Assembly (NCBI GenBank): GCA_016934825.1
Contig: JAFGSB010000143.1
Coordinates: forward strand, 1 to 51,022
Length of the DNA stretch: 51,022 nt
DNA from: Candidatus Zhuqueibacterota bacterium
Lineage (GTDB): Bacteria; Zhuqueibacterota; Zhuqueibacteria; Residuimicrobiales; Krinioviventaceae
Direction of reading: 5' to 3'
Below, in pieces: positions 198 through 51,022 of the stretch (position 1 is the stretch's first letter; each line of letters starts with the position of its first letter). Below the pieces are notes generated by a model. That model saw only the letters and a program-made list of their open reading frames with translations. It made no database searches and was not told where the DNA came from. The position numbers were made by a program, and so were the translations under genes.

Positions 198-946
198 TTA
201 ATGAAAATCTTTTACTGATTCGGAATTACGATCCCAATATTCCGAAAAAAGAGTGGATTGATTTTATTGTACATAAAAACCTGTTGGGGAAACCTTCTCG
301 TAATTGGACAAAAGAATTAATAAATGGTGTATTCTTCCCACGTTATGTGAATGGAACGTATAAGGATGCCTGGCAGGACATCAAGTTATTTGATCACTAT
401 AATATTAATAGCAACATCATAAAATGTATTCTCTATTATCATACAGCATTAGCGGACGAATTCCTGTATGACTTTATTTCCCAGATTGTTTATGAAAAAT
501 ATTATTCTGGTCAAATTCATATTTCAAGTAATGATGGTTACCAATTCATTCAACAAACGCCTGATCATTTTTTCAACAATCCCTGGAGTGATTATCTTAA
601 AAGAAGACTTTCAAGGGGGATTATGGCCACTTTACGTGATTTCGGAATTTTGGTGGGCAAGGGAACAAAAAAAATCGGGAACTATTATATGCCCCTGGAA
701 GCCTTTGTTTATATTTCTTTTCTTATTAAACAAAAATTACAATCCGGTGAAAAATTATTAAAACACCCGGATTGGAATCTATTTTTATTGAATACAAAAT
801 TGGTCGAACGAATGTTCCTGGAAGCGCATCAGCATAAATATATAAATTACATGGCAGCTGGCGATATCATCAGAATAGAGTTCCCATATGAAAATGTAAA
901 GGATCTAATTCATGCAGTTTGTAAATCAACGATTAAAACAACTTGA
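146..946 (+). CDS. brxA: BrxA, BREX inner-membrane-protein-type family (DUF1819)
   Basis: This is the first gene of the BREX phage-exclusion operon. At 266 aa it is slightly longer than many BrxA proteins. The assignment rests on family resemblance (DUF1819-like, mostly helical, no transmembrane segment evident despite the family's historical name) and on its position directly before brxB and brxC. Characterised BrxA proteins are small helical DNA-binding proteins needed for host methylation and phage restriction. Its end overlaps the start of brxB by 35 bases, which implies translational coupling. No strong Shine-Dalgarno site precedes the ATG at 146, so the exact start is uncertain. The gene is AT-rich, like brxB and brxC and unlike pglX. 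Confidence 0.85.
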   Translation: MQGYKKYKARFHHFGAMINENLLLIRNYDPNIPKKEWIDFIVHKNLLGKPSRNWTKELINGVFFPRYVNGTYKDAWQDIKLFDHYNINSNIIKCILYYHTALADEFLYDFISQIVYEKYYSGQIHISSNDGYQFIQQTPDHFFNNPWSDYLKRRLSRGIMATLRDFGILVGKGTKKIGNYYMPLEAFVYISFLIKQKLQSGEKLLKHPDWNLFLLNTKLVERMFLEAHQHKYINYMAAGDIIRIEFPYENVKDLIHAVCKSTIKTT

Positions 947-1496
947 GGCGGATCTATTAGCACAACCAATGCGGATAAGTGTCTATCATGATTTGCCTTT
1001 TACTTTATTTCATTATCCACCTCAATTGGAATTTCAATTTCGCGAAGAGATTCATAGATTCGGCACAAGATTGGAAAATAAAAGTAAAAAAATTATCACA
1101 ATATCCTTGGCAGAATTATTATGGTACGCCGTCCTGGAAAATGATACTCTAAATAACATTACAGAAAATGAGAAAAAATTTGGTTTTAACCGTCAATCAG
1201 AAGTCATTCAAACATATTTATCACTTGAGGATTTTACACCACTTCCTCAAATGGTGTTAAAAAAGATAAAGAATGCAAAACCGGAATCTCATATTGTTTT
1301 TCTTGTCAGAGCGGGAGCAATGGCCCCCAATTTATACAGAATGAGTATATTATTGTCTGAACTACATGGGAAAACTATGGTCCCTATTGTTTTATTTTAT
1401 CCTGGTTTAAAAGAAGGAGAAGCACAATTACGATATATGGGTATGGAGGGCAGGGATGCGATTAGTCGCTCAAACTATCGTGTGAAAATTTATTAA
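912..1496 (+). CDS. brxB: BrxB, BREX protein (DUF1788)
   Basis: The product is a 194-aa protein of the DUF1788 (BrxB) family, the second core BREX gene. The family typically runs to about 200 aa and has no assigned enzymatic motif. In model BREX systems it is required for both methylation and restriction, probably as part of the assembly containing BrxC, PglZ and PglX. A run near residues 130-150 (HIVFLVRAGAMAPNLYR) resembles the conserved core in which the family predicts a nucleotide-binding-like fold. The start lies inside brxA, and 28 bases separate its stop from brxC, where a Shine-Dalgarno site (CGGGAGGA) precedes brxC. Family and context agree, so confidence is high. Confidence 0.85.
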   Translation: MQFVNQRLKQLEADLLAQPMRISVYHDLPFTLFHYPPQLEFQFREEIHRFGTRLENKSKKIITISLAELLWYAVLENDTLNNITENEKKFGFNRQSEVIQTYLSLEDFTPLPQMVLKKIKNAKPESHIVFLVRAGAMAPNLYRMSILLSELHGKTMVPIVLFYPGLKEGEAQLRYMGMEGRDAISRSNYRVKIY

Positions 1497-1524
1497 AATC
1501 ATATTATGATCCGGGAGGATTTTC

Positions 1525-4500: not shown

Positions 4501-5163
4501 AAGGAGAACCATCTATTTGTTGATCACTTGGATAAGATATTAAAACCGGACACACTGCTTCTTTTTACAAATACAAAAAGTCTTTTAAATAATATTTGGC
4601 CGATTTTACGGGAACATGTCCCTGACACTGATCTGGAAGAAAAAGAACTGGCTTTGGAGAATTTACTCAAGACGGAACAATTGTATGAAAATATTCAATC
4701 CGTTAAAACCGATTGCAAAGCCATTTTTGATATATTTGTTAACCTGTTTAAAAAAGCCCATGAAGATAGAAACATTAAATATGATTCGGCGCTTGAAAAG
4801 ATAAAAGGGCATCCCGAGTTTGTCGGACTCCCGGAAGCCGAACAGGATAGTATTATTCAACTCTTTATAAAAAAATGTTGTGAAAAATTGAACATAAATT
4901 GGAGCGGTCAATGTGAAACATGCCATGCTTCCCTGCTCCAACTGGAATCGGATATTCTGGCCGTGGACGCTCTTGTAGGACAAGCGTTACAAAAAATCCA
5001 TAAATTCAAAGAGCCGGGTAAAGAAAAATATATCAACATTTCTGTGCGAAAATATTTAAACGGAGAATATCACTCAAAAGAAGATTTTGAGACAGCAATC
5101 AAACAACTTTCTGATGAGGTTTTGAAATATTTTCTGGAAGGTAAAAAAGTATTTATCGAATAG
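1525..5163 (+). CDS. brxC: BrxC, BREX AAA+ P-loop ATPase
   Basis: This large 1212-aa ATPase has the usual BrxC length. The Walker A motif GFFGSGKS is at residues 71-78, and a Walker B-like strand ending IIDEVGQYV lies near residues 257-266. The rest is long and mostly helical without transmembrane segments. BrxC is a core component of BREX, thought to act as an ATP-dependent remodeller or clamp that works with PglZ, BrxB and PglX in both methylation of host DNA and exclusion of phage DNA. A Shine-Dalgarno site (GGGAGGA) lies just upstream of the ATG. The stop is only 3 bases before pglZ, so the two are almost certainly translated in sequence from one mRNA. Confidence 0.93.
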   Translation: MQKIKELFALPVDRKIEEVIQVDQHDEEIVKQEIEEYVVTDSIKSHFITVYDNIAKYLNAPHRGIGIWISGFFGSGKSSFAKLLGYTLENRSLLGKKASERFQESNRDEKISNFLTNINSRFKIHSIIFDVSMDRGVRTASDRITEVMYKVLLRELNYPTDFDLAELEMSLEADGDLENFKKNYQKKYNKDWEKGKKIATNALNEASFILHEMKPDKYSTPNSWLLALGKGRADIDANRLAYLTFELISRRKPGYGIVYIIDEVGQYVARSTDKMLDLQAVVQALGKESENRIKAKKTTVPAWLIVTSQEKLNEVVDALDARRIELARLQDRFSIPIDLKQSDIREVTAKRVLQKNKDSEKLLGELYDKYEGRIKTYCSLERTHRSISFSKEDFIHLYPYLPYQVELSIDIVAGLRLRRGAQRHVGGSNRTIIKQAQQMLINPQTNLANRPIGALVTLDQIYELLFLGNLLPSEVVSEISAIPARLPNDPMALKVTKAIALLEVVRDLPRTAHNIAAVLHPALDAESTEKDVLAALKQLEAAQFVRESEQGYKLLTVAEKNWDSERQSKAPKERQKHDIIEGIFRDQIFVEPSFKAHRFKNLKTFNLQILLNDRKINDGTIILDFKYGDSFKDLTDLKENSKKLSRTDDHKNDIFWLFTLNEPLHTSLVEYYRSKTMVQEYSRIQSQGQITTEELACMEDEKHREQKLAQKIKADLINATESGVIIFQGIEKDASLLGNNFSDILKSSLNHFIPQIYTKLEMGACKLTGKEVDGLLKSANLNALPTIFYNAPEGLELVTKQGNKFLPNTNAPIVQEIFIYLKSQFDYGNKITGKILENHFENPPYGWDRDLLRLILALLFRAGLLEINFQGKKYKIYSEPASWPALINNVTFRSTTFSPRKTIGIPELTEAVKHYEEITGYEVDVDEVKIAAAFQKLAQNDLEILNTVKYHIDHYLLPGKERIDQIKEDIQTILNSSPDDCVTHLAGQGQTYKENHLFVDHLDKILKPDTLLLFTNTKSLLNNIWPILREHVPDTDLEEKELALENLLKTEQLYENIQSVKTDCKAIFDIFVNLFKKAHEDRNIKYDSALEKIKGHPEFVGLPEAEQDSIIQLFIKKCCEKLNINWSGQCETCHASLLQLESDILAVDALVGQALQKIHKFKEPGKEKYINISVRKYLNGEYHSKEDFETAIKQLSDEVLKYFLEGKKVFIE

Positions 5164-5166
5164 CTT

Positions 5167-7716
5167 ATGAAAAAAGTAAATGAATTTATATCAGCCTATC
5201 TACTTGATCATATTCGTGAATATGGCATTGTATTATGGTATGATCCGGAGCAATTATATACGGAAATGCTGAATGATCTGACTTTGCCGAATGTACCGGT
5301 TTTTATATACGAGGGCAGTTTCCTAAAACTACGTTATAACATTGAAACTTTACTGGCCGGTGAGAAAAAACCCAATATGCTGATATACATCAATTTGGCC
5401 AGAAACGAAACTGAATACGCCATGATCGAAGCGGAATCCGCGGGTTGTTATTTAATGCCCGGTCATCCGGAGCGGAAATTCAACACGCGGCTTGTCAACA
5501 TAGCCCGGCAAATGCTGGAACCGATTTTACCGGGACAAATAGACGATATTACTCAAAAAATTGAACAGGGCATTTATGATTTAAAGGATGTTAACCGCCT
5601 GGCTCAATCGGGCTATTCATCGGAACTGGGAACACTCAAACTTTTATACGATAAAAACGATCCGCTGGAAATACTGTACGAGTTTATTATTCATCCTGAA
5701 CGGGATGAAAAGCTGGCTGCAAAAAACGCCCTGAATGAGTTGAAAAAAGTTGCCGTGAATCACGGCGGGATGGTCCTGAAAAGTGAAACCGCTTCCGAGA
5801 TACGCGAAGAGTTGTTCCGGTTTTTACTGGTTAATGACTTTATCCTGTCCGGCCAGTTGCAAAAGGTTCCCGATATTCTGATAAACTTGTTTTGCGCCGG
5901 TTCCGAATCTGCCGTCACCAATATTTCAAAACTGGCCGAGATGCTCAGACAGCGAACACCCGGTTCACCAATTTACCAACAGACAGCTGAGAACCTTGAA
6001 CAAACTTATCATCTCGATGAACTGGATGTTCCGGTTGATGCACTGGTGAATGTCCATACATTCCCTTTTGTGGAAAAACGACTCCTGCACTACGCCTATG
6101 ATTTACTGCTTGATAATAGAATTGACGACCTGGAAAAACATTATCGGCAGAGGCATAATTCTTACTGGGGACAATTACTTCCTTTTATGGTACAGTGGGA
6201 ATGGTTAAGATCGGTTATTGAATTTCTTAAAATCACAGCAAAAATAAATAATGATTTAAAAGCTAAAAAATGGTCCCCGGAAAAACTGATTGAATACTAT
6301 ACCGGCGATGAATCCGCCTGGTATTTATTTGAGCAATATTTTCAGGAACTGGAAATCGGCTTTTTAAATTTTGACAGTGTGTATATGGAACTTCCTGACG
6401 TACTGGAAAAATGCCTCGCCAAAATACGAACAGAGTATTCGGAAGTGTTATTTTTACTTTCGATAACGTTTCAGGAAGGATTGGAACAGAACGACTTTGT
6501 CATCAATTCCATTCTGCCGCATACAAATGTTTTTAGTAACAAGGTCCACCCTTTTTTAAAAGAAAAAGTGGCTTTTATACAGGTGGATGCCCTTCGTTAT
6601 GATATGGCCGTAATCCTGCGTAATATGTTACAGGAACATCACGAAACCGAGCTGTTACCAATAGTCGCTCAATTACCAACCATCACGCCGGTGGGTATGG
6701 CAGCCTCATTACCGGCGGCGGAACAGCATATCGCATTGACCCGCGATACACAGGGTAGAACGGGTTTACAGATCAATAATACGGCGCTGTTTTCACGGGA
6801 GGACAGAAAAAACTATCTTTTACAGAGCATGGAAAAAGCCATTTTTTGGGATACCAAATTACAGGACATTCAATCACCCAGGAAACAGCTTCGCGAGCAG
6901 ATCGATAAAGCCGGTTTCATCTGGATCACGTCACAGGATATCGACGCACTGGGAGAAAATATCCAGCCCAATCTGGCGCGACCCATGATGCGGGAGCTGT
7001 TGAACGATCTTCGCCGCGGCGTGCAGCAGTTGTTCAAAATGGGCATACAGCGGGTTGTCATCACATCGGATCACGGATTTTTATTCGGCACGGAACTCGA
7101 TCCCGGCAATAAAGTTGACGCGCCCGGCGGCAATACCTGTCTGCTGCACCGGCGGGTCTGGATCGGACAGGGCGGCGCTTCTCATGATTCCTATATTCGC
7201 GTGAATGAAAATCAGCTCGGACTTTCGGGTGATCTGGAACTGGTTTTCCCGCGCGGTATTGCCTGTTTCAAAGCCCCGGGAGGGAATGACATATTTTTTC
7301 ATGGCGGCATATCATTACAGGAAATGGTCATTCCGGTGTTGAGTTTAACCAAACCGAAGCCGGTAACAACCACCGGAGATGCTATGTTCCGTGTGAGCAT
7401 GGAGAAAAAAGAGATCACCAACCGGTTTTTCACCCTCCAAATCCGCTATGAGACGGCGGACCTGTTTTTACCAGATACCCGCCGGGTGCATCTCGATATT
7501 GAATACGATAAGAAACCGGTCGGCCAGATCGTCACCGCTTCCTATGGTCTTGATCCGCGTTCCGGTGATATTTTACTTGAAAAAAATAAAGACAATTCGA
7601 TAGCCGTCATGCTCAACGAACCCATCCCTCCGACTCTGGACCTGATCCTGTCGGATACGGAAACCCTGGCGGTGTTGTCGAAAACCACAAAAATTCCAGT
7701 GAAATTGTTAATATAA
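5167..7716 (+). CDS. pglZ: PglZ, BREX alkaline-phosphatase-superfamily protein
   Basis: The product is an 849-aa PglZ-domain protein. Metal-binding signatures of the alkaline phosphatase superfamily are visible: VDALRYDM with Asp474, and ITSDHGFLF with Asp635 and His636. PglZ is the hallmark gene of BREX. Members have metal-dependent phosphodiesterase or nuclease activity in vitro and form part of the exclusion complex. Here pglZ lies directly after brxC, 3 bases from its stop, and before pglX. The common type I order is brxC-pglX-pglZ, so the two genes are swapped. Base composition rises from AT-rich to distinctly GC-richer through this gene. A gap of 13 bases separates it from pglX, with a GAAAG-type ribosome site. 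Confidence 0.92.
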   Translation: MKKVNEFISAYLLDHIREYGIVLWYDPEQLYTEMLNDLTLPNVPVFIYEGSFLKLRYNIETLLAGEKKPNMLIYINLARNETEYAMIEAESAGCYLMPGHPERKFNTRLVNIARQMLEPILPGQIDDITQKIEQGIYDLKDVNRLAQSGYSSELGTLKLLYDKNDPLEILYEFIIHPERDEKLAAKNALNELKKVAVNHGGMVLKSETASEIREELFRFLLVNDFILSGQLQKVPDILINLFCAGSESAVTNISKLAEMLRQRTPGSPIYQQTAENLEQTYHLDELDVPVDALVNVHTFPFVEKRLLHYAYDLLLDNRIDDLEKHYRQRHNSYWGQLLPFMVQWEWLRSVIEFLKITAKINNDLKAKKWSPEKLIEYYTGDESAWYLFEQYFQELEIGFLNFDSVYMELPDVLEKCLAKIRTEYSEVLFLLSITFQEGLEQNDFVINSILPHTNVFSNKVHPFLKEKVAFIQVDALRYDMAVILRNMLQEHHETELLPIVAQLPTITPVGMAASLPAAEQHIALTRDTQGRTGLQINNTALFSREDRKNYLLQSMEKAIFWDTKLQDIQSPRKQLREQIDKAGFIWITSQDIDALGENIQPNLARPMMRELLNDLRRGVQQLFKMGIQRVVITSDHGFLFGTELDPGNKVDAPGGNTCLLHRRVWIGQGGASHDSYIRVNENQLGLSGDLELVFPRGIACFKAPGGNDIFFHGGISLQEMVIPVLSLTKPKPVTTTGDAMFRVSMEKKEITNRFFTLQIRYETADLFLPDTRRVHLDIEYDKKPVGQIVTASYGLDPRSGDILLEKNKDNSIAVMLNEPIPPTLDLILSDTETLAVLSKTTKIPVKLLI

Positions 7717-7729
7717 AAAGAAAGCAATT

Positions 7730-10700
7730 ATGAAATCCGAGCTCAAATCGGCCGTTCGTACTACAGTGCAAAAGGCCCGGGAATTATTGTTACGTGAAGC
7801 GGCGGAACAACTGGAAAGCATCTACGGTTATCACCGGGACGGCAGCGGTGAAACCGTGGACAACCTGCCGGAAACCCAGAAAGATCCGGTAAAACAGAAA
7901 ACGTTATTACTGCTGATTCAATTTTTCAAGGAAGAAGAAAAATCCGGGTTGAACGCCGCGGATGCGGTGCAAAAACTGATCAGGGAAATCGCGTTTACCC
8001 ACCTCAACCGCCTGGTAGCGTTCAAAATGATGGAAGCCCGCAAAATCCTCCGCGGCACTGTAGATAAAGGCCCGGACTCTAACGGATTCAAGTTTTACCT
8101 GGCCGAACATGAAGACGATTTAAAACTATTCGAGACCGGCGGGACGGACACGGCATACCGGAATTTTTTGCTCTGGCAGTGCGGACAGATCGCGGAAAAG
8201 GATCATCTGGAGGTGCTGTTCGATCCGGGCAACCTGCCCTCAAAAATGTTTCCGCGGCCGACCACACTGAATAAGCTGCTGGAACTGCTGAACGCGGAAA
8301 ACCTGGAACCGGTATGGCAACAGGATGAAACCATCGGCTGGGTGTACCAGTACTTTATCGAGGAGGACAAGGACCGCGTATTTCACAAAATCTACAAACA
8401 AAAAAAGAAAATGGAACTGCGGGATATTCCCGCGGCCACGCAGATCTTTACCCCTCGCTGGATCGTGTTGTACCTAGTGGAAAATACGCTGGGCAGGATG
8501 TGGCTGCGCATGCACCCCGATTCCCGCCTGGCGGAGAAAATGCGCTATTATGTGCCCAATCACTATAATGATAAAGAACCCCTGCCGCTGAAACCGGTCA
8601 GGGAGATCACCCTGCTGGACCCGGCCTGCGGCACCATGCACTTTGGCCTGGCGGTGTTCGACCTGTTTTACGCAATGTACCGGGAAGAACTGGAGAACGC
8701 GGGTCACGACGGCTGGCCGACTGGAGAACAATCCGCGGTTTCCTCGGAACAGGAAATACCGGTCAAAATCATCGAAAACAATATTTACGGCATTGACATT
8801 GACCTGCGCGCCATCCAGCTCTCCGCTCTGACCCTGTATTTAAAAGTCAAATCCATGAATAAAGACGCAAAGATCAGCAGACTGAATCTCACCTATACCG
8901 ATATACCTCCCATTGCCGAAGATGAGATGGAAAATTTTATCGCTTCCCTCGAACTCAAACACCCCGTTGCCGGTGAATTGCTGGCGAAAATACTGCCGGA
9001 ACTGAACAAGGCCTATTACCTGGGCAGTTTGCTTAAAATTGAGGACGTAGTCCGGAGTTTTATTAAGGACAAAAAAACCGCGTTCAAAAAACAAATGCCG
9101 CAGCTGCCGGGTATGGATGCCGAAACCGAACCGGCTTCCTGGTATCAGGTCCATGACGAGATACTGAACGGTTTGCGAAAAATGGTCAGCAGCCGATCTA
9201 ACGGCAAAAGTTTAATTGCCGGCGAGGCCATTCAGGGTTTGGGTTTGATTGATGCTTTGATTCAAAAACATGATATTGTCGTTGCAAATCCACCATTCTC
9301 GGGCAGGCGTAATTGGGGAAATAATTATGCTAAAATATTAAAAACATACTATCCTTTAAATTCCTCAGATATGTATTCTGCTTTTATTGAAAGATTTAAA
9401 AATTTAGTAAAGCCTGAAGGACTTGTTGGATTTGTTACCAGCCATACATTCATGTTTACAAGCTCTTATGAAAATTTAAGGAAAATGCTCATAACCGAAA
9501 CTTCTCTTCAAACTATTCTTCATGTTGGGAATTTAAGTGAGTTTGATAGCGGGGGGCGAATTGAAGGAGCCCTGGCTTTTGTGGCGATGGCCTTTCAAAA
9601 TACATCAAGTAACAAAGATAAAAAGATCATTAACTTCAGACTGGTAGCAGATAAAGATTATTTAAAAATATCCAATTTTCAATCCGCCCTGGCCGACTGG
9701 CAAACCCATGGCGAAGCGGCTACGGACCGGCATGTGTTTGTCGTTCGCCAGGAAGATTTTAAAGCCATTCCCGGCTGGCCGTTGGTCTATTGGGTGAGTG
9801 AGGGGATAAGGAAAGTATTTTATGAAAATAAAATTATCTGGAATTATAATAAAAAAACTGGATTAGCAGAACCAAGATTAGGAATGGCTACTGGGGATAA
9901 TAATCGTTTTATAAGATATTGGTGGGAAATAATACTAAAAAAAATTCCAAAACAATCCATACATATTACACAAACATTTCAAAAAAATATGATATGGTAT
10001 CCATATATGAAAGGTGGAGATTATAACAAATGGTTTGGAAATCAAGATAATATTATAAAATGGTTAATGGATGGTATTGAATGTAAAAGCACTAAAAAGG
10101 GCGATAGAATAATATCTCATAATTATAATGGTGAATATAGTTTTAAGGAAGGTGCTACTTATTCCTTCCTTACCGTTAGCAATTTGAACGTTCGTTACCT
10201 GCCTCCAGGGTTTATTTTTGATGTGGCAGGATCATCCATTTTCCCCAAAGAGGGTAATCCCCTGTTCATTATTGCCTTATTAAATTCAAAAATATCTACC
10301 TTTCTTATTAAATTATTGAATCCAACCGTTAATTACCAGGTTGGCGATATTGCCCGGCTTCCCTATCCCGATACCGATAATTACCAGATATTAAAAGATA
10401 CCGTTGAACAAAAAACGCAAACCTGCATACACAGCAAACGCCGGCTGATCAACCTCTCCCCTGTTACCTGGGAATTTTCTCTGCCGGCGGACTGGGAAAA
10501 CGGCCTTCAGGAACAGGTCATACTGGATTTTAAACTGACCACGCTTGAAAACGACATCAGCGAAGCTTGTTATATCCTTTACGGCGTCAGTACCGAGGAC
10601 ATAACTCGGATCGAGGAAGATTTCGGCATTTTACCGGGCCGCCTGCCCGGAGCGGAAGCAGCCGAATTGAATACGGCGGTAAAAAAGATAAAAACATATT

Positions 10701-11890
10701 ATCTCGACAAACACATACCGGAAGAAGCCCTGAAATCCGGGACGGAACAAATAAGCGACGAAAAAGAAACCGAAAACGAAACCAAAAAAAGCCGCCGAAT
10801 GTCCCGGTACCTGAATTTCGAGGAGGTTTGTCTGGCTTCGGGGTACCACCCGGATACGGTTTATCAGGTCATCTCCGATAACCGCTGGCAGCGGCCGGAG
10901 GAGCGGTTCGAATTGGCGTACAACTGGCTGGAATACGCCATCGGTATTCTGATGGGCCGGTTCAGCCCCGGCATAAAAGGCGAACTCGGCAGCGCCGTGA
11001 TACACAAAAACGATTTTATCACCGGTTCGCTGACCATTACCGACGAGGAATTCGAAGAGATCAGCAAATACTTTCCGGTCAGCTATACAGAAGAGTCGGG
11101 CAAGCACGCGTTCAGCAAAGAACTCGAGCAGCAACTCTGCGCTTTGGCGGACCCGGACGGCATTATGGTCCTGGACGAGGGCCACAAGGATGATCTGCCC
11201 GCCAGGATCGATGATGTCCTGAGCATGATGCTGGGCGAAAAGCAGTCCCGCGAAGTGCTGGCCACTTTGATCGGCGAAGCTAAACCCGACCGGGAAAAGT
11301 TCCGCCGTTTTATGGAACGGGATTTTTTCAGCAAACACCATTTGAAAATGTACCGCAAAAGACCGATTTACTGGTTGCTGCAGACTGGCGGAAAAAATTA
11401 CGGCTTTTATATTTTTCACGAACGCTTCGACAAAGACACCCTGTACAAACTGCAGAGGAACTATATCGATCCCAAGCTCAAGCTGGTGGACATGCAGATA
11501 AAGGACAAAACCCGCAACCTGTTGAACCTCAGCGGCAGCGAACAGCGGGCGGCCAAACGGGAGATCGAGGACCTGCAGGACCTGTACCAGGAGATCCGGG
11601 AATTCACGGAAAAACTAACCGCCGTACTTAACAAGACCGATGAAAACGGCAGGGTTGTCGGTTACGATCCGGATATCAACGACGGTGTGATCATCAACAT
11701 GGCGCCGCTGCGGGAGTTGATCCCCTGGAACGAACCGGCAAAATACTGGCAGGAACTGGAACAGGGACAATACGACTGGGCGCGGCTTGCCATGCGCTAC
11801 TGGCCCGACCGCGTGACGGAGAAATGTAAAAAAGACAAATCGTTGGCCATCGCGCATGAAATTGAGGATATTTATCAGGGAGGAAAATAA
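7730..11890 (+). CDS. pglX: PglX, BREX site-specific N6-adenine DNA methyltransferase
   Basis: This 1386-aa methyltransferase marks host DNA as self. SAM-binding motif I is visible as DPACGT starting at Asp297, and the catalytic N6-adenine motif IV as NPPF at residues 520-523. The N-terminal 250 residues are helical. The region from about 700 to 830 fits the target-recognition part. The remaining C-terminus is charged and helical, rich in Glu and Lys around residues 1000-1030. Composition is uneven: the flanks are GC-rich, while about 9250-9620 and 9810-10180 are AT-rich (14 of 60 bases G+C in 10021-10080 against 34 of 60 in 11161-11220). This suggests replacement of the recognition segment by recombination. 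The gene ends 2 bases before the SIR2-like gene. Confidence 0.93.
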   Translation: MKSELKSAVRTTVQKARELLLREAAEQLESIYGYHRDGSGETVDNLPETQKDPVKQKTLLLLIQFFKEEEKSGLNAADAVQKLIREIAFTHLNRLVAFKMMEARKILRGTVDKGPDSNGFKFYLAEHEDDLKLFETGGTDTAYRNFLLWQCGQIAEKDHLEVLFDPGNLPSKMFPRPTTLNKLLELLNAENLEPVWQQDETIGWVYQYFIEEDKDRVFHKIYKQKKKMELRDIPAATQIFTPRWIVLYLVENTLGRMWLRMHPDSRLAEKMRYYVPNHYNDKEPLPLKPVREITLLDPACGTMHFGLAVFDLFYAMYREELENAGHDGWPTGEQSAVSSEQEIPVKIIENNIYGIDIDLRAIQLSALTLYLKVKSMNKDAKISRLNLTYTDIPPIAEDEMENFIASLELKHPVAGELLAKILPELNKAYYLGSLLKIEDVVRSFIKDKKTAFKKQMPQLPGMDAETEPASWYQVHDEILNGLRKMVSSRSNGKSLIAGEAIQGLGLIDALIQKHDIVVANPPFSGRRNWGNNYAKILKTYYPLNSSDMYSAFIERFKNLVKPEGLVGFVTSHTFMFTSSYENLRKMLITETSLQTILHVGNLSEFDSGGRIEGALAFVAMAFQNTSSNKDKKIINFRLVADKDYLKISNFQSALADWQTHGEAATDRHVFVVRQEDFKAIPGWPLVYWVSEGIRKVFYENKIIWNYNKKTGLAEPRLGMATGDNNRFIRYWWEIILKKIPKQSIHITQTFQKNMIWYPYMKGGDYNKWFGNQDNIIKWLMDGIECKSTKKGDRIISHNYNGEYSFKEGATYSFLTVSNLNVRYLPPGFIFDVAGSSIFPKEGNPLFIIALLNSKISTFLIKLLNPTVNYQVGDIARLPYPDTDNYQILKDTVEQKTQTCIHSKRRLINLSPVTWEFSLPADWENGLQEQVILDFKLTTLENDISEACYILYGVSTEDITRIEEDFGILPGRLPGAEAAELNTAVKKIKTYYLDKHIPEEALKSGTEQISDEKETENETKKSRRMSRYLNFEEVCLASGYHPDTVYQVISDNRWQRPEERFELAYNWLEYAIGILMGRFSPGIKGELGSAVIHKNDFITGSLTITDEEFEEISKYFPVSYTEESGKHAFSKELEQQLCALADPDGIMVLDEGHKDDLPARIDDVLSMMLGEKQSREVLATLIGEAKPDREKFRRFMERDFFSKHHLKMYRKRPIYWLLQTGGKNYGFYIFHERFDKDTLYKLQRNYIDPKLKLVDMQIKDKTRNLLNLSGSEQRAAKREIEDLQDLYQEIREFTEKLTAVLNKTDENGRVVGYDPDINDGVIINMAPLRELIPWNEPAKYWQELEQGQYDWARLAMRYWPDRVTEKCKKDKSLAIAHEIEDIYQGGK

Positions 11891-11892
11891 TA

Positions 11893-13035
11893 ATGGGAAA
11901 AACGGTTTACTTTTTAGGGGCGGGGTTTTCAGTACTATTTGGAGGTCCATTACAATCAAACATAATTAAAGAGATTATGGCAATAGAACAAAACGGAAAT
12001 GAACCGGAAGGCTTTGGACAATTTGCTGATGTAAAATGCCGGTTATTAAATTTTTTAGAGGTAGCTTTTCCAAAAATCAATGAGAATGATTATGAACATA
12101 TAAATATTGAGGATATATTTTCAATTCTTGATAGAGCCATATTAAACAAAGACTCATTTCATATTTATTCATTGGAGGATTTACTTGAAATCAGAACAGC
12201 ATTGATAAATTCAATTATTTTTATGTTTAAATATAAATTATATTATCATTTGGATAAACAATTACTAATGGATTTTCTTAATATACTTTTATCACAAAAC
12301 TCAAATTCAACAGTTTCCTTTATTACTACAAACTGGGAAATTATATTGGATAATGTTCTCTTTAAAATATTAATGAATAAAGAGAATCCATATTCCCTAA
12401 GTTATGGATTTGATACCGATTATTATGCTTATGAGGGAAATTCTCTAAAGTATTTTAAAAATAAAGATAAAATAATACATTTGTTAAAATTACATGGTTC
12501 CATGAATTGGCTCTATTGCCCGAATTGTAATAGAATATTTCACGATTTTGTGGAAAAAATTGCATCTCACGAACTCCAACATGAACAATATAATCCAAGA
12601 TGTAGATATTGTAAAGATATTTATAAACGTAAATATGATAGAGGTGATGTTGAAAATCCCTTTATGTTAAGATCATATTTGATTATGCCTACTATGTTAA
12701 AAGAATTAGATAATCTATATATTCAACAAATATGGCATCAGGCTAGTATCGAACTATCTCAAGCAGATGAACTGGTATTTATCGGCTATTCCTTTCCGCA
12801 GGCGGATTTTGAAATCCGCTATTTACTGGGCCGCTCAATACGGAAAGATTGTAAAATAAAGGTTGTGCTGTATAAAGATGATGAACCGAAAAATCATTGT
12901 ACAAATGATTATCATCTATTGCCGGAACACCGATACAAATACTTTTTTGGCTTAAATGACGATGCGTTTGATTATTCCGGGTTGGAGGGGTATGTGAAGA
13001 AGAATATGGAGATATCTAATTCGTCACAACAGTAA
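11893..13035 (+). CDS. SIR2-like (PF13289-type) NAD-binding defence protein
   Basis: The product is a 380-aa stand-alone SIR2-family protein. The NAD-binding loop GAGFS is at residues 9-13, followed by FITTNWE (TTN motif), the catalytic-type LHGS around residues 200-203, and FIGYSFPQADFE near the end. Two cysteine pairs, CPNC at 209-212 and CRYC at 237-240, look like the zinc ribbon of sirtuins. In anti-phage systems, SIR2-like proteins usually deplete NAD to abort infection. That role here is inference. The ATG is 2 bases after the pglX stop with GGAGG upstream, so it is cotranslated with BREX. No partner sensor or Argonaute is adjacent, so BREX itself or the protein alone may sense infection. 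The gene is AT-rich, unlike the 3' part of pglX. Confidence 0.82.
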   Translation: MGKTVYFLGAGFSVLFGGPLQSNIIKEIMAIEQNGNEPEGFGQFADVKCRLLNFLEVAFPKINENDYEHINIEDIFSILDRAILNKDSFHIYSLEDLLEIRTALINSIIFMFKYKLYYHLDKQLLMDFLNILLSQNSNSTVSFITTNWEIILDNVLFKILMNKENPYSLSYGFDTDYYAYEGNSLKYFKNKDKIIHLLKLHGSMNWLYCPNCNRIFHDFVEKIASHELQHEQYNPRCRYCKDIYKRKYDRGDVENPFMLRSYLIMPTMLKELDNLYIQQIWHQASIELSQADELVFIGYSFPQADFEIRYLLGRSIRKDCKIKVVLYKDDEPKNHCTNDYHLLPEHRYKYFFGLNDDAFDYSGLEGYVKKNMEISNSSQQ

Positions 13036-13055
13036 CTTGTCAAATGATAAAAGAT

Positions 13056-13111
13056 TTGCATTTTATATAAAATGATTCTATATTTCTGTCATTAGACCGT
13101 AATGACAGAAA
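13056..13111 (+). promoter_or_regulatory. abiE promoter with palindromic operator
   Basis: A -35-like TTGCAT at 13056-13061 and a -10-like TATATT at 13079-13084 are separated by exactly 17 bases. Overlapping the -10 and the expected start site is a perfect 11-bp inverted repeat: TTTCTGTCATT at 13083-13093 and AATGACAGAAA at 13101-13111, with a 7-base spacer. AbiEi antitoxins are known to bind inverted repeats in their own promoter and repress it, so this is the likely autoregulatory operator. It gives the toxin-antitoxin pair expression independent of the BREX transcript. Confidence 0.55.
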
Positions 13112-13122
13112 AAAAGAATTAT

Positions 13123-13725
13123 ATGAAAAAAATACTCGACATTTTTCAACAACAGGGTGGTTACGCCCGTATGAAGGACCTGAAAGCGGCGTCGGTGCAG
13201 CCCAGGGATATAAAACGCCTGCTTGAACAGGGGTATATAGAAAAAGTAAAACCCGGACTGTATAAACTGCCCAATCTACCGGAAATTGACGGTATTCCGC
13301 ATAGTTTTATCGACGTATGTAATGCCATACCCAAAGGAGTAATCTGTCTGCTTTCAGCGCTTTCTTATTACGATTTTACGACCTTTTCACCGGCCGAAAT
13401 ATATGTCGCACTCCCGAATTATGAAAAACCGTCACAAATCGAATATCCGCCAACCCGGATATTTTATTTTCGCGACATTAATTATAAAACAGGCATTAAT
13501 ACCATGGAAACATCTTATGGCAGTATTCGAATTTATAATCCGGAAAAAACTATTTGTGACATGTTTCGTCTGCGTAATTCTCTGGGGGAGGATGTGGCTC
13601 TTGAAGGACTGAAAAACTATCTGAAAACAAAACAGTCAAATATAAGCAGACTCCTGGAATATGCGCAAACAGGACGGATCAAAACTATTATAACACCCTA
13701 TATGAAAGCAATGATAACGGAATGA
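13123..13725 (+). CDS. abiEi: AbiEi-family type IV antitoxin / transcriptional repressor
   Basis: The product is a 200-aa antitoxin of the AbiEi family. An N-terminal winged-helix domain (residues 1-60, containing GGYARMKDLKAA and a GLYKLPN turn) is followed by the AbiEi C-terminal domain (PHSFIDVCNAIPKGVICLLSA onward). Antitoxins of this type do not bind the toxin but counteract it, and they repress their own operon. The frame is open from an ATG at 13102. I prefer the ATG at 13123 because the predicted transcription start (about 13091) and the palindrome would otherwise leave almost no leader, and because the family usually begins close to the helix-turn-helix. It overlaps abiEii by 4 bases (ATGA). 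Confidence 0.82.
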   Translation: MKKILDIFQQQGGYARMKDLKAASVQPRDIKRLLEQGYIEKVKPGLYKLPNLPEIDGIPHSFIDVCNAIPKGVICLLSALSYYDFTTFSPAEIYVALPNYEKPSQIEYPPTRIFYFRDINYKTGINTMETSYGSIRIYNPEKTICDMFRLRNSLGEDVALEGLKNYLKTKQSNISRLLEYAQTGRIKTIITPYMKAMITE

Positions 13726-14591
13726 ACAAAAGCGTCACAAAAACCAACCTGGGCGCATCTATCCGGGCCAGGTTATTGAATTATTCAAAAAACAATAAAC
13801 TTGACCATAATGCGGTTTTGTTACAATATTTTCAGGAAAGGTTTCTTTACCGGCTTTCAATATCACGTTACAGGAACCATTTTATACTAAAAGGTGCCTT
13901 GCTTGTTATTACATATAAAATTCCGCGAACAAGACCGACCAAAGATATTGATTTTTTAGGTGTCGATACTCCGAATGATAATGCAAAAATTAAATCAATT
14001 ATTACTGAAATATTAACTCAATCCTGTAATGACGGTGTTGAATTTGATGAAAAAAGTCTTGTATTGGAAAACATCGCTGAAGAGAATACCTACCACGGTA
14101 TTCGGGCCAAGTTTTTTGCTGGGATGGATACAATTAGAAAAAGAATACAAATTGATATCGGATTTGGTGATATAATTACTCCAACCGCAATGACACGATC
14201 TTTTCCTACACTTTTAGACATGCCTGTTCCTGAAATAATGGTTTATCCTCTTGAAACAGTTATTGCGGAAAAATATCATACCATCGTTAAATTCAGCTTC
14301 CCGAATAGCCGCATGAAGGATTTTTATGATATTTACTTTTTATTAAAACATACATCAATTCATAATAAAATAATAAAGAATGCGATAGAAAACACGTTTG
14401 CTAATAGAAATACATCTTTGGATGATCGCAAGGTGATCTATACGGATGAATTTAGACTATCCCCTGAGAGACAAAATCAATGGCGGGCTTTCTTGAATCG
14501 ATATAATTTAGAGAAAATACCCGAATTCCCTTACATTATAGAATTTTTTAAACAATTTTTTGAATCCATATTAAATTGGGAAAACAAATGA
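13722..14591 (+). CDS. abiEii: AbiEii/AbiGii-family nucleotidyltransferase toxin
   Basis: The product is a 289-aa toxin of the AbiEii (DUF1814) nucleotidyltransferase family. The family motifs are present: KGALLV near residue 57, the D-x-D metal site in RPTKDIDFLG near residues 78-86, the EKYHTIVKF motif near 185, and RMKDFYDIYFLL. Such toxins transfer nucleotides, in some members to tRNA acceptor ends, and halt growth during phage infection. The start overlaps the antitoxin stop as ATGA, the usual coupling in this operon. It sits between SIR2-like and brxL, so the pair is embedded inside the BREX locus. The function is family knowledge; the phage target here is unknown. Confidence 0.85.
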   Translation: MNKSVTKTNLGASIRARLLNYSKNNKLDHNAVLLQYFQERFLYRLSISRYRNHFILKGALLVITYKIPRTRPTKDIDFLGVDTPNDNAKIKSIITEILTQSCNDGVEFDEKSLVLENIAEENTYHGIRAKFFAGMDTIRKRIQIDIGFGDIITPTAMTRSFPTLLDMPVPEIMVYPLETVIAEKYHTIVKFSFPNSRMKDFYDIYFLLKHTSIHNKIIKNAIENTFANRNTSLDDRKVIYTDEFRLSPERQNQWRAFLNRYNLEKIPEFPYIIEFFKQFFESILNWENK

Positions 14592-14642
14592 TTAAAACAT
14601 TATTAACAAATATTATAATCAATTAAATATTGAGAGAAGATT

Positions 14643-16664
14643 ATGATCGATTTGGATAAAAAAGTCAATCAGGTATTTCCCGGCAAAGTGGTTCGTAAAG
14701 ATCTGGTGCGCAAGGTAAAGGTCGGCGCCAATGTACCGGTATATGTACTGGAATACCTGTTGGGAAAGTACTGCGCGACGGATGAGGAGTTGGCCATCCA
14801 ATCCGGTTTACAGATCGTGAATGATATAATATCCAAAAATGTGATCAATCCCGATGAATCCAACAAAGCCAAAGCCTGGGTCAAAGAGAACGGCGAATAC
14901 ACTTTTATTGACAAGGCCAAGGTCCGTCTGATCGCCAGCGAAGATAAATACTGGGCGGAACTGGTGAACTTTAATGACAACTTTATTCATATATCCAACA
15001 ATTTTATTCGTCAGTATGAACGTTTGCTGGAGGGCGGTGTATGGAGTGAAGTAAAACTACAATATATGTATGATGAGGAGCAAAAAGGGCGTAAAAGTCC
15101 TTTCTGGATAAAAGAGCTCAAGCCCATACAACTGGCCTCATTCGATTTTGCTGATTACAAACAGGGACGAACTCAATTTACAACAGAGGAATGGATCGAT
15201 GTATTAATTGCGTCAATCGGTTTGGAACCTTCGGTATTTGACGCAAGACAGAAACTGTTAATACTTGTACGGATGATACCCATGGTAGAGAATAATTTCA
15301 ATCTAATTGAATTGGGTCCCCGGGGAACAGGTAAATCGTTTGTCTATCGAGAAATATCGCCATTCTCCATTCTGATCAGCGGCGGGAAAACAACGGTTGC
15401 TAATTTATTTTATAACATGGCATCCAGACAGGTGGGTTTGGTCGGATACTGGGATGTCGTCGCATTTGATGAAGTTGGGGGAATGGACCTGCGTGAACGA
15501 GACGTTGTCGATATATTAAAAGATTATATGGAAGCCGGATCATTTAGCCGCGGAAAGGATGAAATCACGGCCAAGGCGGGAATGTGTTTTCTGGGTAATG
15601 TCAATCTACCCATAGAAGTATTGACCAAAACCAGTCATTTGTTCCAGCCGTTACCCGATAAAATGGTCGATCCCGCTTTAATTGACCGGTTCCATTTTTA
15701 TTTGCCGGGGTGGGAGTTCCCCAAAATGTCGAACGAGTTGTTCACAAACCGGTATGGATTTGTAGTAGATTATCTGGCTGAGGCGTTTCGGGAGGCGCGA
15801 AAACTAAATTTCACCGAAAAACTGGATCATTATTATTCATTGGGTGATCATTTAAATGCCCGTGACGCAAAGGCGGTCCGTAAAGCGGTGGCGGGGCTGG
15901 TGAAAATGATTCATCCTGATGGAAATGTCACCAAAGATGAAATACGTAATTATATCCAGATTGCTCTTGAGGGCCGACGTCGTGTTAAAGAGCAATTGAA
16001 AAAAATGCTGTCATTTGAATACGCCAAAACCAGTTTTTCATTTATTGACAACGAAACCCGTGAAGAAGCGTTTGTCGGAGTCCCCGAAGAAGGCGGACGT
16101 GATCTTATCATGCCGGATCCGTTGGCGCCGGGTAACGTGTATTCCATTATTGTGGATCCCGACGGCAAACCCGGCCTGTTCCGAATTGAAGTGGGAATTT
16201 CGGTGGGCACTGGAAAAATTCATCAATCCGGCGGAATGCAGAAACTGATGAAAGAATCATTACAAAGAGCTTTTGTATATTTGAAAAGCCGGAAGGTCGA
16301 GTACGGTATCGGCAAAGAAGTGGACAATACGGATTTTCATGTAGAGTGTGTGAACCTGCTCGGCACTAATCTGGATTCAGCTATTGGAGTAGCATTTTTT
16401 GTCGCCATGTATTCCGCCCTAAAAAAGAAATCCGTAAAAGCCGCCACGGTAATATTGGGAGATATGACCATTCAGGGAAATATAAAACCTTTAACATCTG
16501 TCCAGGAGCCCCTGCAGATTGGAATGGACAACGGCGCCCGAAAGGCATGTATTCCCATCGAAAACAAACGTCATTTTTTGGAGGTCCCGGCGGACATTGT
16601 TGAGCAGGTGGACCCGATCTTTTTTAGTGAGCCCATGGTCGCGGCTCAAAAGTGTTTGGAGTGA
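14643..16664 (+). CDS. brxL: BrxL, Lon-like AAA+ BREX effector
   Basis: The product is a 673-aa protein of the BrxL family, the terminal gene that defines type I BREX. A Walker A motif GPRGTGKS lies around residues 225-232, Walker B VVAFDEVGGMD follows, and the C-terminus has a Lon-protease-like fold. Ser579 (in LDSAIGVA) aligns with the Lon catalytic serine, but the position of the catalytic lysine, 42 residues on, is Gln621 (in SVQEPL). Proteolysis is therefore unlikely, in line with characterised BrxL proteins acting as AAA+ DNA-binding rings needed for restriction. GAGAGAAG upstream of the ATG is a plausible ribosome site. The 51-base gap after abiEii has no obvious terminator, so readthrough from the operon is possible. 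Confidence 0.92.
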   Translation: MIDLDKKVNQVFPGKVVRKDLVRKVKVGANVPVYVLEYLLGKYCATDEELAIQSGLQIVNDIISKNVINPDESNKAKAWVKENGEYTFIDKAKVRLIASEDKYWAELVNFNDNFIHISNNFIRQYERLLEGGVWSEVKLQYMYDEEQKGRKSPFWIKELKPIQLASFDFADYKQGRTQFTTEEWIDVLIASIGLEPSVFDARQKLLILVRMIPMVENNFNLIELGPRGTGKSFVYREISPFSILISGGKTTVANLFYNMASRQVGLVGYWDVVAFDEVGGMDLRERDVVDILKDYMEAGSFSRGKDEITAKAGMCFLGNVNLPIEVLTKTSHLFQPLPDKMVDPALIDRFHFYLPGWEFPKMSNELFTNRYGFVVDYLAEAFREARKLNFTEKLDHYYSLGDHLNARDAKAVRKAVAGLVKMIHPDGNVTKDEIRNYIQIALEGRRRVKEQLKKMLSFEYAKTSFSFIDNETREEAFVGVPEEGGRDLIMPDPLAPGNVYSIIVDPDGKPGLFRIEVGISVGTGKIHQSGGMQKLMKESLQRAFVYLKSRKVEYGIGKEVDNTDFHVECVNLLGTNLDSAIGVAFFVAMYSALKKKSVKAATVILGDMTIQGNIKPLTSVQEPLQIGMDNGARKACIPIENKRHFLEVPADIVEQVDPIFFSEPMVAAQKCLE

Positions 16665-22375: not shown

Positions 22376-23434
22376 ATGTCGGTATATAAAAAATCCAGAA
22401 AGGACGGTTCAAGGGCCTGGTTTTATGACTTCTCCCATAATGGTGTACGATATCGGGGCGTCGCGGGGTCTACTAAAACACAGGCTTTAATTGTTCAAGA
22501 CAAAATTAGAGCTAAAGTCCTGAACGGTGAATATGACCTGAAAGACAAATACAATAATCAGAGATTTGAGGACTTTGCACAAAAATACTCGAGAAGAAAT
22601 TCTCACTTGAGAAGTTACAAAAGAATTAAAATATTCTTGAATAATTTAACAGCCTTTTTTTCTGGTAATGTTCTTTCAAATATTACGGCAAATGAAATCG
22701 AGGAATACAAGTCTAAAAGATTAGTGGATGGTGTTACCAAAACGACAGTTAATCGTGAATTGGAATGTTTAAGACGCATGTATAATTTGGCTGTAAAATG
22801 GGGTGACGCTAAAACGAATCCCGTTAATAATGTAGACTTTTTTAAGGAACCACCTGGCCGAACACGCTACCTTACTCTTGAAGACGCAAAATCATTACTT
22901 GATAATTGTAATGTTTTTCTTAAACCTGTTGTTTTTACTGCTTTGAATACAGGTATGCGTTTAAGTGAAATTTTGACACTCAGGTGGAACCAGGTTCACA
23001 TTCGATCAGTCATTGACCCTTATATCGAATTATCGGAAACAAAAAGTAATAAAAAAAGAAGTATTCCTCTCAATGATGATATGGTTGAATTGCTAAATCA
23101 ATTGTATCCGAATGATTCTGAATATGTCTTTTTAAATGTGACTGGTATGCCTTTCAAATCTGTTAAAATAAGTTTCCATACAGCACTGAAAAAGTCAGAG
23201 ATTCTGGACTTTCGATTTCATGATCTGAGACATACGTTTGCATCCCATTTTATTATGAACGGTGGTGATCTTTTAACCCTAAAGGAAATTTTGGGACACA
23301 GTTCATTAAAGATGGTAGCACGTTACACTCATTTGGCTCAAAAACACAAATTACGTCAGATAAATAATCTTGTTGGCAAATTCAAAAATGCCACCTATCT
23401 GCCACCTGAGAGAAAAATGAGTGAAAAAATTTAG
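22376..23434 (+). CDS. Tyrosine recombinase (phage-type integrase)
   Basis: This 352-aa tyrosine recombinase has an N-terminal arm-binding-like region (residues 1-60), a core-binding SAM-like domain (about 65-160) and a C-terminal catalytic domain. The catalytic residues are visible: Arg in NTGMRLSEIL (about 195), HDLRHTF (about 282-288), LGHSS (about 306) and the tyrosine nucleophile in ARYTHL (about 316). AAAGGAGG directly before the ATG gives strong translation. The stop is 36 bases before the 5' end of the tRNA-Sec gene, which suggests that gene is the chromosomal target. No copy of the tRNA end is seen elsewhere in the window, so the far attachment site must lie outside. Confidence 0.92.
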   Translation: MSVYKKSRKDGSRAWFYDFSHNGVRYRGVAGSTKTQALIVQDKIRAKVLNGEYDLKDKYNNQRFEDFAQKYSRRNSHLRSYKRIKIFLNNLTAFFSGNVLSNITANEIEEYKSKRLVDGVTKTTVNRELECLRRMYNLAVKWGDAKTNPVNNVDFFKEPPGRTRYLTLEDAKSLLDNCNVFLKPVVFTALNTGMRLSEILTLRWNQVHIRSVIDPYIELSETKSNKKRSIPLNDDMVELLNQLYPNDSEYVFLNVTGMPFKSVKISFHTALKKSEILDFRFHDLRHTFASHFIMNGGDLLTLKEILGHSSLKMVARYTHLAQKHKLRQINNLVGKFKNATYLPPERKMSEKI

Positions 23435-23470
23435 TAAAAAAATCAACCTAACCTATTGTTTTTATTATAC

Positions 23471-23566
23471 GGGAATGCATGGCGACCTGGTGGCGCCCGC
23501 GGGCTTCAAACCCGTATGTGAGGCGTGAATAACGTCTCGGGTGGGTTCGATTCCCACACATTCCCG
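23471..23566 (+). tRNA. selC: tRNA-Sec (UCA anticodon)
   Basis: The 96-base gene folds as a selenocysteine tRNA. The acceptor stem GGGAATG pairs with CATTCCC. The anticodon stem GCGGG/CCCGT encloses loop CTTCAAA with anticodon TCA. A long variable arm (GAGGCGT, ACGTCTC) follows, then a T arm with GTTCGATT. The 3' discriminator is G, and CCA is not encoded. The long variable arm and TCA anticodon exclude ordinary tRNAs. It decodes UGA with selenocysteine, so the organism should encode SelA, SelB and SelD elsewhere; none is in the window. The integrase ends 36 bases upstream and a terminator follows at once. Confidence 0.93.
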
Positions 23567-23570
23567 CTAT

Positions 23571-49092: not shown

Positions 49093-49179
49093 GCCGAGGT
49101 GGTGAAATTGGTAGACGCACTGGACTCAAAATCCAGCGTTCGCAAGAACATGCGGGTTCGATTCCCGCCCTCGGCACCA
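49093..49179 (+). tRNA. tRNA-Leu (CAA anticodon)
   Basis: This 87-base gene has acceptor stem GCCGAGG/CCTCGGC, anticodon stem CTGGA/TCCAG with loop CTCAAAA (anticodon CAA), and the long class II variable arm of leucine tRNAs. The T arm contains GTTCGATT, and the 3' ACCA is encoded. A terminator follows 15 bases later. Confidence 0.95.
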
Positions 49180-49194
49180 AAAATAACAAATAGT

Positions 49195-49219
49195 AAAGCC
49201 CACTTTTATGGTGGGCTTT
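49195..49219 (+). terminator. Rho-independent terminator after tRNA-Leu
   Basis: AAAGCCCAC pairs with GTGGGCTTT around a 7-base loop and is followed by T-residues. Confidence 0.88.
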
Positions 49220-49290: not shown

Positions 49291-49995
49291 ATGAAAAAAA
49301 AATTAATTGTTTTTTTTATATTATTATGTTTCAGAATTTCATTTTCAACTACAATTATTGCTTATCAAAGAAACAATATCATTCACATTGGTGCTGATAG
49401 TAAGCATACGGTATGGAATTCTGGAAAAAATATTGACACATTTTCTAAAACTAAAATTCATATTATTAATAATTTTTGTTTTTTACTTCAAGGGAATTGG
49501 GCAGACAGTACTATTAATTTTGAAACTTTCATTACAGATCAATTGAAAGAAAATTCATTTGGTTTAACTGAGCATTTAAAAAAAATTATAGATTGGTATT
49601 ACTCAAATTTTAGTTCTTATTACAAGGTTATTAAATCTCAAAATAGTTATTACTATCAAAAAATATTTAAAGAAAAATTAGTCTGCAAAATTTTAATATG
49701 TGGAATTGAAAACAAGAACCCCCATTTATATTGTTTGAAATTTATAATTAATAATGATGGAATTTTAGATCACGATATAATGAATTTTTCAAATGAAAAA
49801 GCTTATATGTATTATTTAGGACAAACAGAAGCAATTGAACAATATTTACAGGAAAATAATTGGGAAACCGAAACAAATCCTATTGATTTAATTAATAATT
49901 TAATTAACCTTCAAATTCAAACAACTCCAGAATTCGTAAGAAAACCAATTAATATCATTAAGCTTGATAGCAAGGGATATGAATGGATTCAATAA
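49291..49995 (+). CDS. Predicted exported proteasome-like (HslV/Anbu-type) Ntn-hydrolase
   Basis: This 234-aa protein has a signal peptide (residues 1-19, KKLIVFFILLCFRISFS core). Directly after it comes TTIIAYQRNNIIHIGADSK, matching the start of proteasome beta/HslV/Anbu subunits (TTIV, then GGD or ASDS). If cleaved after SFS, the mature chain would begin with Thr1, the nucleophile of this class. Asp would fall at position 17 as in HslV, and Lys36 in TKIHI takes the place of Lys33. The export peptide would thus replace the usual propeptide. Substrate unknown. The frame extends upstream through tRNA-Leu, which is an artefact. The ATG has no clear ribosome site, but an ATG-ACG-TAA mini-ORF with GGAG lies 20 bases upstream. 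Confidence 0.6.
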   Translation: MKKKLIVFFILLCFRISFSTTIIAYQRNNIIHIGADSKHTVWNSGKNIDTFSKTKIHIINNFCFLLQGNWADSTINFETFITDQLKENSFGLTEHLKKIIDWYYSNFSSYYKVIKSQNSYYYQKIFKEKLVCKILICGIENKNPHLYCLKFIINNDGILDHDIMNFSNEKAYMYYLGQTEAIEQYLQENNWETETNPIDLINNLINLQIQTTPEFVRKPINIIKLDSKGYEWIQ

Positions 49996-50220: not shown

Positions 50221-51022
50221 ATGGCAAACCCAGAACACCTTGCAAAATTGAAAGAAGGTGTAAAAGCCTGGAATGAATGGAAAAAAACACAGAAAATTGA
50301 CTTTGTTGCGGATTTGAGCAAAGAATATCTCAGCGGGGCAAAACTCCATAAGGCCAATCTCAGATATGCTAATCTAAGTGAGACCGATCTAAGTGGGTCA
50401 GATCTATGTGGCTCCGCTCTTACTAGGGCTAAACTTAGTAAGACCAATTTAGGGGGATCCAATCTCACTAAAACCATATTCGTTCATACCGATCTTAGTG
50501 GGGCCAATCTCAGCAAGGCCAATCTCCGTATGGCTAATCTCATCAGCTCCGATCTCAGTGAGACCGATCTCAGTGAGGCCAATCTCATTGGGGCTAATCT
50601 CAAAGACGCTAATCTCGCTAATGCAAATCTTAGAAAGGCCGATCTAAGAGAGACCGATCTTCATGGAGTAAATCTCAATGGTGCAAGTCTCATAGGAGCA
50701 GATTTAACAACTGTGGATTTTGAGACTGTCATATTAAATAATACAAATTTTATTAATGCTAAATTGGATTTTACAATAATTTCGGATGCAGTAATTATCA
50801 AAGCCCTGTTAAAAGCTTGCCAATTTGATAGTTACTTTTTATTAAATAGTAAAATTGTAGAAAAATTAAATAGATTATTAATTGGAAATAAAGCTACAGC
50901 AAACAAAATCATTCGTGAGATCGAATTTGAGCCAATAAACTGTACCCAATATTGTAGACACACCAAAAAGTTCGTATATTTGCATAATAATGGAGGTGTG
51001 TCATGGTTACAAGACAACGAAG
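50221..51022 (+). CDS. Pentapeptide-repeat protein, truncated at window edge and probably interrupted by an IS
   Basis: The frame runs from ATG 50221 to the window end without a stop. A helical N-terminus (LKEGVKAWNEWKKTQ) is followed from about residue 38 to 165 by roughly 25 pentapeptide repeats of the A(N/D)Lxx type (GANLS, KANLR, SETDL). These fold as a right-handed quadrilateral beta-helix. The 15-base DNA repeats are also strikingly similar to each other. A helical C-terminal segment follows. From 50941 the DNA looks like an IS3-family left end, so the genuine coding sequence likely stops there (about 240 residues) and the gene is disrupted. Function unknown; some relatives mimic DNA. 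Confidence 0.75.
   Translation, partial: MANPEHLAKLKEGVKAWNEWKKTQKIDFVADLSKEYLSGAKLHKANLRYANLSETDLSGSDLCGSALTRAKLSKTNLGGSNLTKTIFVHTDLSGANLSKANLRMANLISSDLSETDLSEANLIGANLKDANLANANLRKADLRETDLHGVNLNGASLIGADLTTVDFETVILNNTNFINAKLDFTIISDAVIIKALLKACQFDSYFLLNSKIVEKLNRLLIGNKATANKIIREIEFEPINCTQYCRHTKKFVYLHNNGGVSWLQDNE
50941..51022 (+). mobile_element. Left end of an IS3-family (IS150-like) insertion sequence, partial
   Basis: From 50941 the sequence TGTACCCAATATTGTAGACA resembles the left terminal repeat of IS150-group elements. Some 40 bases on, a strong GGAGGTG (50992-50998) precedes ATG 51003, the start of a basic protein (MVTRQRR) typical of an IS3 orfA transposase subunit. The element continues beyond the window. 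It lies inside the pentapeptide gene. The right end and target duplication cannot be seen, so this rests on resemblance. Confidence 0.5.

Follow-up and report, generated by a model that had tools for sequence, protein, structure and literature searches.

We report a gene, P0001, whose product is probably an extracytoplasmic, ATP-independent proteasome-like hydrolase that would be activated by signal peptidase, the gene having apparently been acquired horizontally at a tRNA-Leu site. It occupies positions 49291-49995 on the forward strand of contig JAFGSB010000143.1 from a Candidatus Zhuqueibacterota bacterium (assembly GCA_016934825.1), and the entire contig of 51,022 nt is the window referred to below. 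The initial annotation had described this open reading frame (ORF) as an exported hydrolase of the proteasome type. Its coordinates and translation were verified, and the frame length, the signal and the match to the Pfam family PF00227 (Proteasome) agreed with that description. The longest stop-free run among 1000 random 2-kb sequences of the same dinucleotide composition was 161 codons, and thus the 234-codon frame of P0001 is not a product of chance despite the AT-rich DNA.

Family relationship and active-site residues

PF00227 was the sole Pfam family found for P0001 up to an expectation value (E) of 10, with 22.8 bits and E 7.9e-5 from residue 19 onwards. One-protein and profile searches for relatives covered 82 genomes from the phylum and a mixed set of 388; 345 Bacteroidota genomes were searched through PF00227, and 98 genomes of the order of one relative, L077, were searched as well. 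Detection is weak at such divergence and the copy numbers are therefore lower bounds. Two relatives were recovered, the decayed L040 among the phylum genomes and the intact L077 among the Bacteroidota, and a profile of these three members aligned in the Thr1 register with HslV as well as two sets of cytoplasmic homologues, scoring above 60 of 60 column shuffles. The best profile alignment was to the cytoplasmic homologues L036 and L037 from the same class (E 0.002). These alignments and the PF00227 match indicate that the proteasome relationship of P0001 is statistical and goes beyond visual likeness. The weak sequence matches of P0001 to XRCC4 in the PDB (E 0.09-0.6) were taken as chance, as the fold is different and L077 has no such match.

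The active-site positions were numbered with Thr20 of the P0001 precursor as Thr1, and the features of the gene are as follows.

49291-49995, + strand: gene for the putative exported proteasome-like N-terminal nucleophile (Ntn) hydrolase P0001, 234 amino acids (Pfam, pairwise and profile evidence)
49291-49347, + strand: predicted Sec signal peptide MKKKLIVFFILLCFRISFS (hydrophobic window, -3,-1 rule)
49348-49992, + strand: predicted mature enzyme of 215 amino acids with the N-terminus TTIIAY (translation; low-confidence secondary-structure order)
49348-49350, + strand: Thr1, proposed nucleophile, in register with Thr1 of HslV in the profile alignment (Thr in L077, Ser in L040)
49396-49398, + strand: Asp17, with exact spacing in P0001, L077 and L040
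49408-49410, + strand: Thr21 (Thr likewise in L077, Gln in L040)
49453-49455, + strand: Lys36, equivalent of Lys33 by hand count (Lys37 in L077, exactly Lys33 in L040)
49492-49494, + strand: Gly49, equivalent of the oxyanion-hole Gly47, anchored by Lys-(12-13 residues)-Gly

Thr1 or Ser1, Asp17, Lys33 and Gly47 are the common features given in a family survey that added 22 new subfamilies (PMC8665760). The Asp17, Lys33 and Gly47 residues of the PF00227 family were found in P0001, L077 and L040, the lysine by hand alignment since MAFFT aligns the lysine loop poorly. The residue at position 1 is Thr or Ser in all three members, and its becoming the mature N-terminus is a prediction. Asp17 stands exactly where the initial annotation had placed it, and the lysine that it had put at the place of Lys33 lies three residues further on in P0001. 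The lysine at 36 or 37 was read as a loop probably three to four residues longer than the K33...G47 segment of the proteasome. The glycine follows the lysine by 13 residues in P0001 and by 13-14 across the three members; in the T. acidophilum beta subunit this distance is 14 residues.

Predicted export signal and relatives

The N-terminus of P0001 is of the Sec export type, MKKK-LIVFFILLCF-RISFS, followed directly by TTIIAYQRNNIIHIGADSKHT. It has a KKK n-region and a 9-residue hydrophobic core with a mean Kyte-Doolittle value of 3.63, and S17-F18-S19 ahead of T20 agrees with the -3,-1 rule and is normally spaced from the core. The cleavage directly ahead of Thr1 (SFS/TTIIAY, the slash marking the cut) that had been predicted earlier is supported in P0001 by this rule. 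A lipoprotein signal was rejected, since position -1 of ILLC is not a small residue. No methionine was found near residue 1 in P0001, L077 or L040, and thus the Met-removal (aminopeptidase) route of cytoplasmic HslV-type enzymes is closed. In L040 a hydrophobic remnant remains at the N-terminus, with a predicted cleavage SEA/STG directly ahead of Ser1, and L077 carries a signal peptide of its own. Export looks common to P0001 and its relatives as judged from these N-termini.

The intact relative L077 (258 amino acids) aligned with P0001 over the full length at 24% identity (BLASTP 39.3 bits, pair E 2e-8), and the alignment takes in the C-terminal motifs INNLI-L-I...P--V--I-I and EW.Q. PF00227 is its sole Pfam match, at 18.0 bits and E 0.0023, which is under the cut-off. 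We infer Bacteroidota as its host phylum, since its reference genome encodes SusC-type domains and a neighbour carries a type IX sorting domain. The GC (guanine plus cytosine) content of L077 is 0.52 against 0.54 for the host, a match in composition that marks it as an older resident there. Its gene (7334-8110 of L086) shares four bases with the end of a glycosyltransferase-like gene (6264-7337), and the two may be co-transcribed. The second relative, L040, comes from the same order as the genome of P0001 and is decayed: its reading frame contains a stop, its N-terminus is shortened, and a transposase gene lies directly upstream.

One intact copy of P0001 was found in its own genome, no further member among the 98 genomes of the order of L077, and no relative in phage and plasmid records. 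Pattern scans of viral_contigs and genome_contigs returned no confirmed relative, and as several patterns had been widened by hand-written rows these scans do not show absence. On inspection the candidates L034, L059, L060 and the plasmid hit H3 were false, and the weak PF00227 members of the mixed set (L036, L037, L038, L046, L049, L050, L051 and L054) belong to cytoplasmic or other subfamilies. Among these, L036, L037 and L038 represent a second, cytoplasmic type of proteasome homologue (MSI or MST start, no signal) that several genomes of this class encode in addition to HslV.

Proposed maturation and its alternatives

On the preferred reading, P0001 would be made with a Sec signal peptide and would cross the membrane unfolded. 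Signal peptidase I would cut past S17-F18-S19, and Thr1 would become the first residue, its amino group free. Folding would take place outside the inner membrane, where the Thr1 nucleophile with Asp17, Lys36 and the amide of Gly49 would form a proteasome-type active site. There is no ATP or unfoldase outside the cytoplasm, and P0001 is therefore expected to act without ATP, possibly on small or unfolded peptide or amide substrates. The ORF, its sequence relationship, the residues with their spacing, the export-type N-terminus, the foreign composition and the sporadic occurrence are observed, and the cleavage, location, activity, oligomeric state and substrate of P0001 are what we infer in this scheme. 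Its general claim is export; the narrower one, generation of the nucleophile by signal peptidase, holds for P0001 in terms of position and is plausible as a mechanism. For the family as a whole we propose, tentatively and with slightly less than even confidence, a rare, horizontally spread extracytoplasmic group in some members of which the signal peptide replaces the propeptide and signal peptidase I activates the enzyme, so that it stays inactive until exported.

Several observations weigh against the proposal. P0001 clears the PF00227 cut-off (22.4 bits) by just 0.4 bits. Its signal peptide rests on simple rules, the calls having been made by a rule-based check (hydrophobic window, -3,-1 rule) and not by SignalP, and Arg15 falls in the c-region. 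AlphaFold run without an alignment gave two models with a predicted local distance difference test (pLDDT) score of 37 and 38 and unusable coordinates, and Foldseek found no significant match for them. One Foldseek run placed proteasome beta chains at ranks 1 and 4 and the other placed one at rank 3, at E above 0.1 and a template-modelling (TM) score of about 0.2, and these were not counted as evidence; another look at the Foldseek list turned up no proteasome chain, a result that rules nothing out. In favour of the proposal, the first of these low-confidence models has the order E E E E E E H H E E E E E H H E E, which is that of a proteasome beta subunit, and the four-layer alpha-beta-beta-alpha Ntn fold of P0001 is predicted from its sequence. 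Finally, L077 is the one intact relative known, and its cleavage site and Thr1 do not coincide, the best site being CFG/QTRQG, five residues ahead of TT.

The arrangement in L077 bears on the claim of the initial annotation that the signal peptide stands in for the propeptide, which fits P0001 and L040 by position and fails in L077. The invariant Thr expected directly after the signal peptide in homologues was likewise not borne out, L040 having Ser1 and the TT of L077 lying beyond the cleavage site. The same arrangement favours an exported enzyme in which signal peptidase removes the signal only and the leftover residues go autocatalytically. L077 has Gly at -1 of Thr1, like the propeptides of self-processing proteasome beta subunits, which suggests self-cleavage there. 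In P0001 and L040, however, the -3,-1 site lies directly ahead of residue 1 and nothing would be left to remove, and we consider self-cleavage an unlikely explanation for P0001.

The very hydrophobic core and the arginine ahead of the cleavage site would also fit an uncleaved anchor, with P0001 tethered to the membrane, catalytically inactive and serving a structural or binding role; inactive family members such as the proteasome alpha subunits do exist (PMC8665760). The retention of the nucleophile, Asp17, the lysine and the glycine across 24-28% identity and a good signal-peptidase site exactly ahead of residue 1 argue against such a role, which we regard as improbable. We think it very improbable that P0001 is a decaying or chimeric import with no present function, or that its proteasome likeness arose by chance in the N-terminal 50 residues. 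The strong AT bias, the position near the contig end, the sporadic occurrence and the pseudogene state of L040 would agree with this, but the frame is intact over 234 codons, all the catalytic positions are kept, and P0001 is colinear over its full length with an intact gene in another phylum. Activation of an exported enzyme by signal peptidase is the most likely reading for P0001.

Genomic setting and place among proteasome homologues

The surroundings of the gene in the window contain the following features.

49093-49179, + strand: tRNA-Leu (CAA), found with ARAGORN
49195-49219, + strand: intrinsic terminator of tRNA-Leu (terminator scan; 10-bp stem with a T-run after it)
50221-51021, + strand: gene for a pentapeptide-repeat protein, cut by the contig end (Pfam PF00805, E 1.8e-41)

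P0001 starts 111 bases past the end of tRNA-Leu, and since the terminator closes the tRNA gene, the ORF needs its own promoter. The pentapeptide-repeat gene begins 225 bases past the end of P0001; no link between this neighbour and the enzyme is shown, and no ATPase or operon partner was found adjoining the gene. The GC content of P0001 is 0.23 (third positions 0.17) in a window of 0.40, and the gene looks foreign by composition (23% against 40%). A genome of the same genus, G001, retains the pgk-tRNA-Leu order at 78% identity and has no copy of P0001. Behind its tRNA-Leu, the 3' end of the tRNA recurs in partial copies. At this locus in G001 (C26:87418-87732) the intact tRNA is followed at once by three partial tRNA-Leu 3' copies; 22 kb off lies a fourth, oppositely oriented. 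These copies are the debris of repeated integration at the tRNA-Leu site. We read P0001 as a recent import that would have arrived by horizontal transfer at this site, the right half of which lies beyond the contig end.

Elsewhere in the window, a BREX phage-defence operon (146-16664) encodes BrxA (PF08849), a BrxC-type ATPase, PglZ and BrxL (PF13337). Between them lie a PglX-like methylase gene and AbiE-like genes, both identified by reading. A tyrosine integrase (22376-23567) ends 37 bases ahead of a selenocysteine tRNA (TCA), and its element is apparently anchored at that tRNA.

Among known systems, P0001 shares with HslV (ClpQ) the order of Thr1-Thr2, Asp17, Thr21, a Lys33-type lysine and Gly, with the profile alignment in register. 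It differs in having GADSKHT instead of GDGQxT, 215 mature residues versus about 173, and an export signal. HslV exposes its Thr1 by removal of Met or of a short propeptide in the cytoplasm. The genome of P0001 encodes an ordinary HslV separately, and the two proteins share 4 of 21 residues in the first block. The beta subunits of the 20S proteasome show the same active-site order, L077 even with Gly(-1)-Thr1; unlike them, P0001 has an export signal, no known alpha partner or ATPase and very low identity. The MT[YF] start and the long C-terminal H5 helix past the last strand that mark Anbu are absent from P0001, which in the low-confidence model ends directly past the last predicted strand (the Anbu-type L083 serving as comparison). 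Exported Ntn hydrolases such as penicillin G acylase, gamma-glutamyltranspeptidase and the Gram-negative penicillin V acylases belong to different families of the clan, and no Pfam match of P0001 to any of these families, the penicillin-acylase type included, was seen up to E 10. In the Gram-negative penicillin V acylases, the nucleophile is considered to become exposed once the signal peptide has been cut off, a point that did not appear in the literature searched. To our knowledge, the characterised proteasome relatives (20S, HslV, Anbu, BPH and connectase) are all treated as cytoplasmic.

The Group II proteasome-like homologues (WPH, PMI, FC and others; Fuchs, Alva and Lupas 2021, PMC8665760) are a further close comparison, in which the cytoplasmic L036 and L037 were the best profile partners. 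According to the same survey, propeptides are confined to beta subunits and HslV; its main text makes no mention of a signal peptide, export or the periplasm, and the monomeric connectase indicates that ring or split-ring assembly is not required in the family (PMC8665760). Full-text searches of the open-licence literature gave nothing relevant on exported or periplasmic proteasomes, and an earlier description elsewhere is possible; the 'secreted proteasome' papers on Acidobacteria, judging by the cited title, use the word for secreted proteases only.

If true, an exported branch would mean that proteasome-family enzymes can also act in another compartment, with no ATP-driven unfolding. It would be a simple case in which the catalytic threonine is produced by a general secretion enzyme instead of by self-cleavage or Met removal. 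As neither a partner ATPase nor a maturation factor of its own would be needed, this would also explain the movement of a single gene between phyla.
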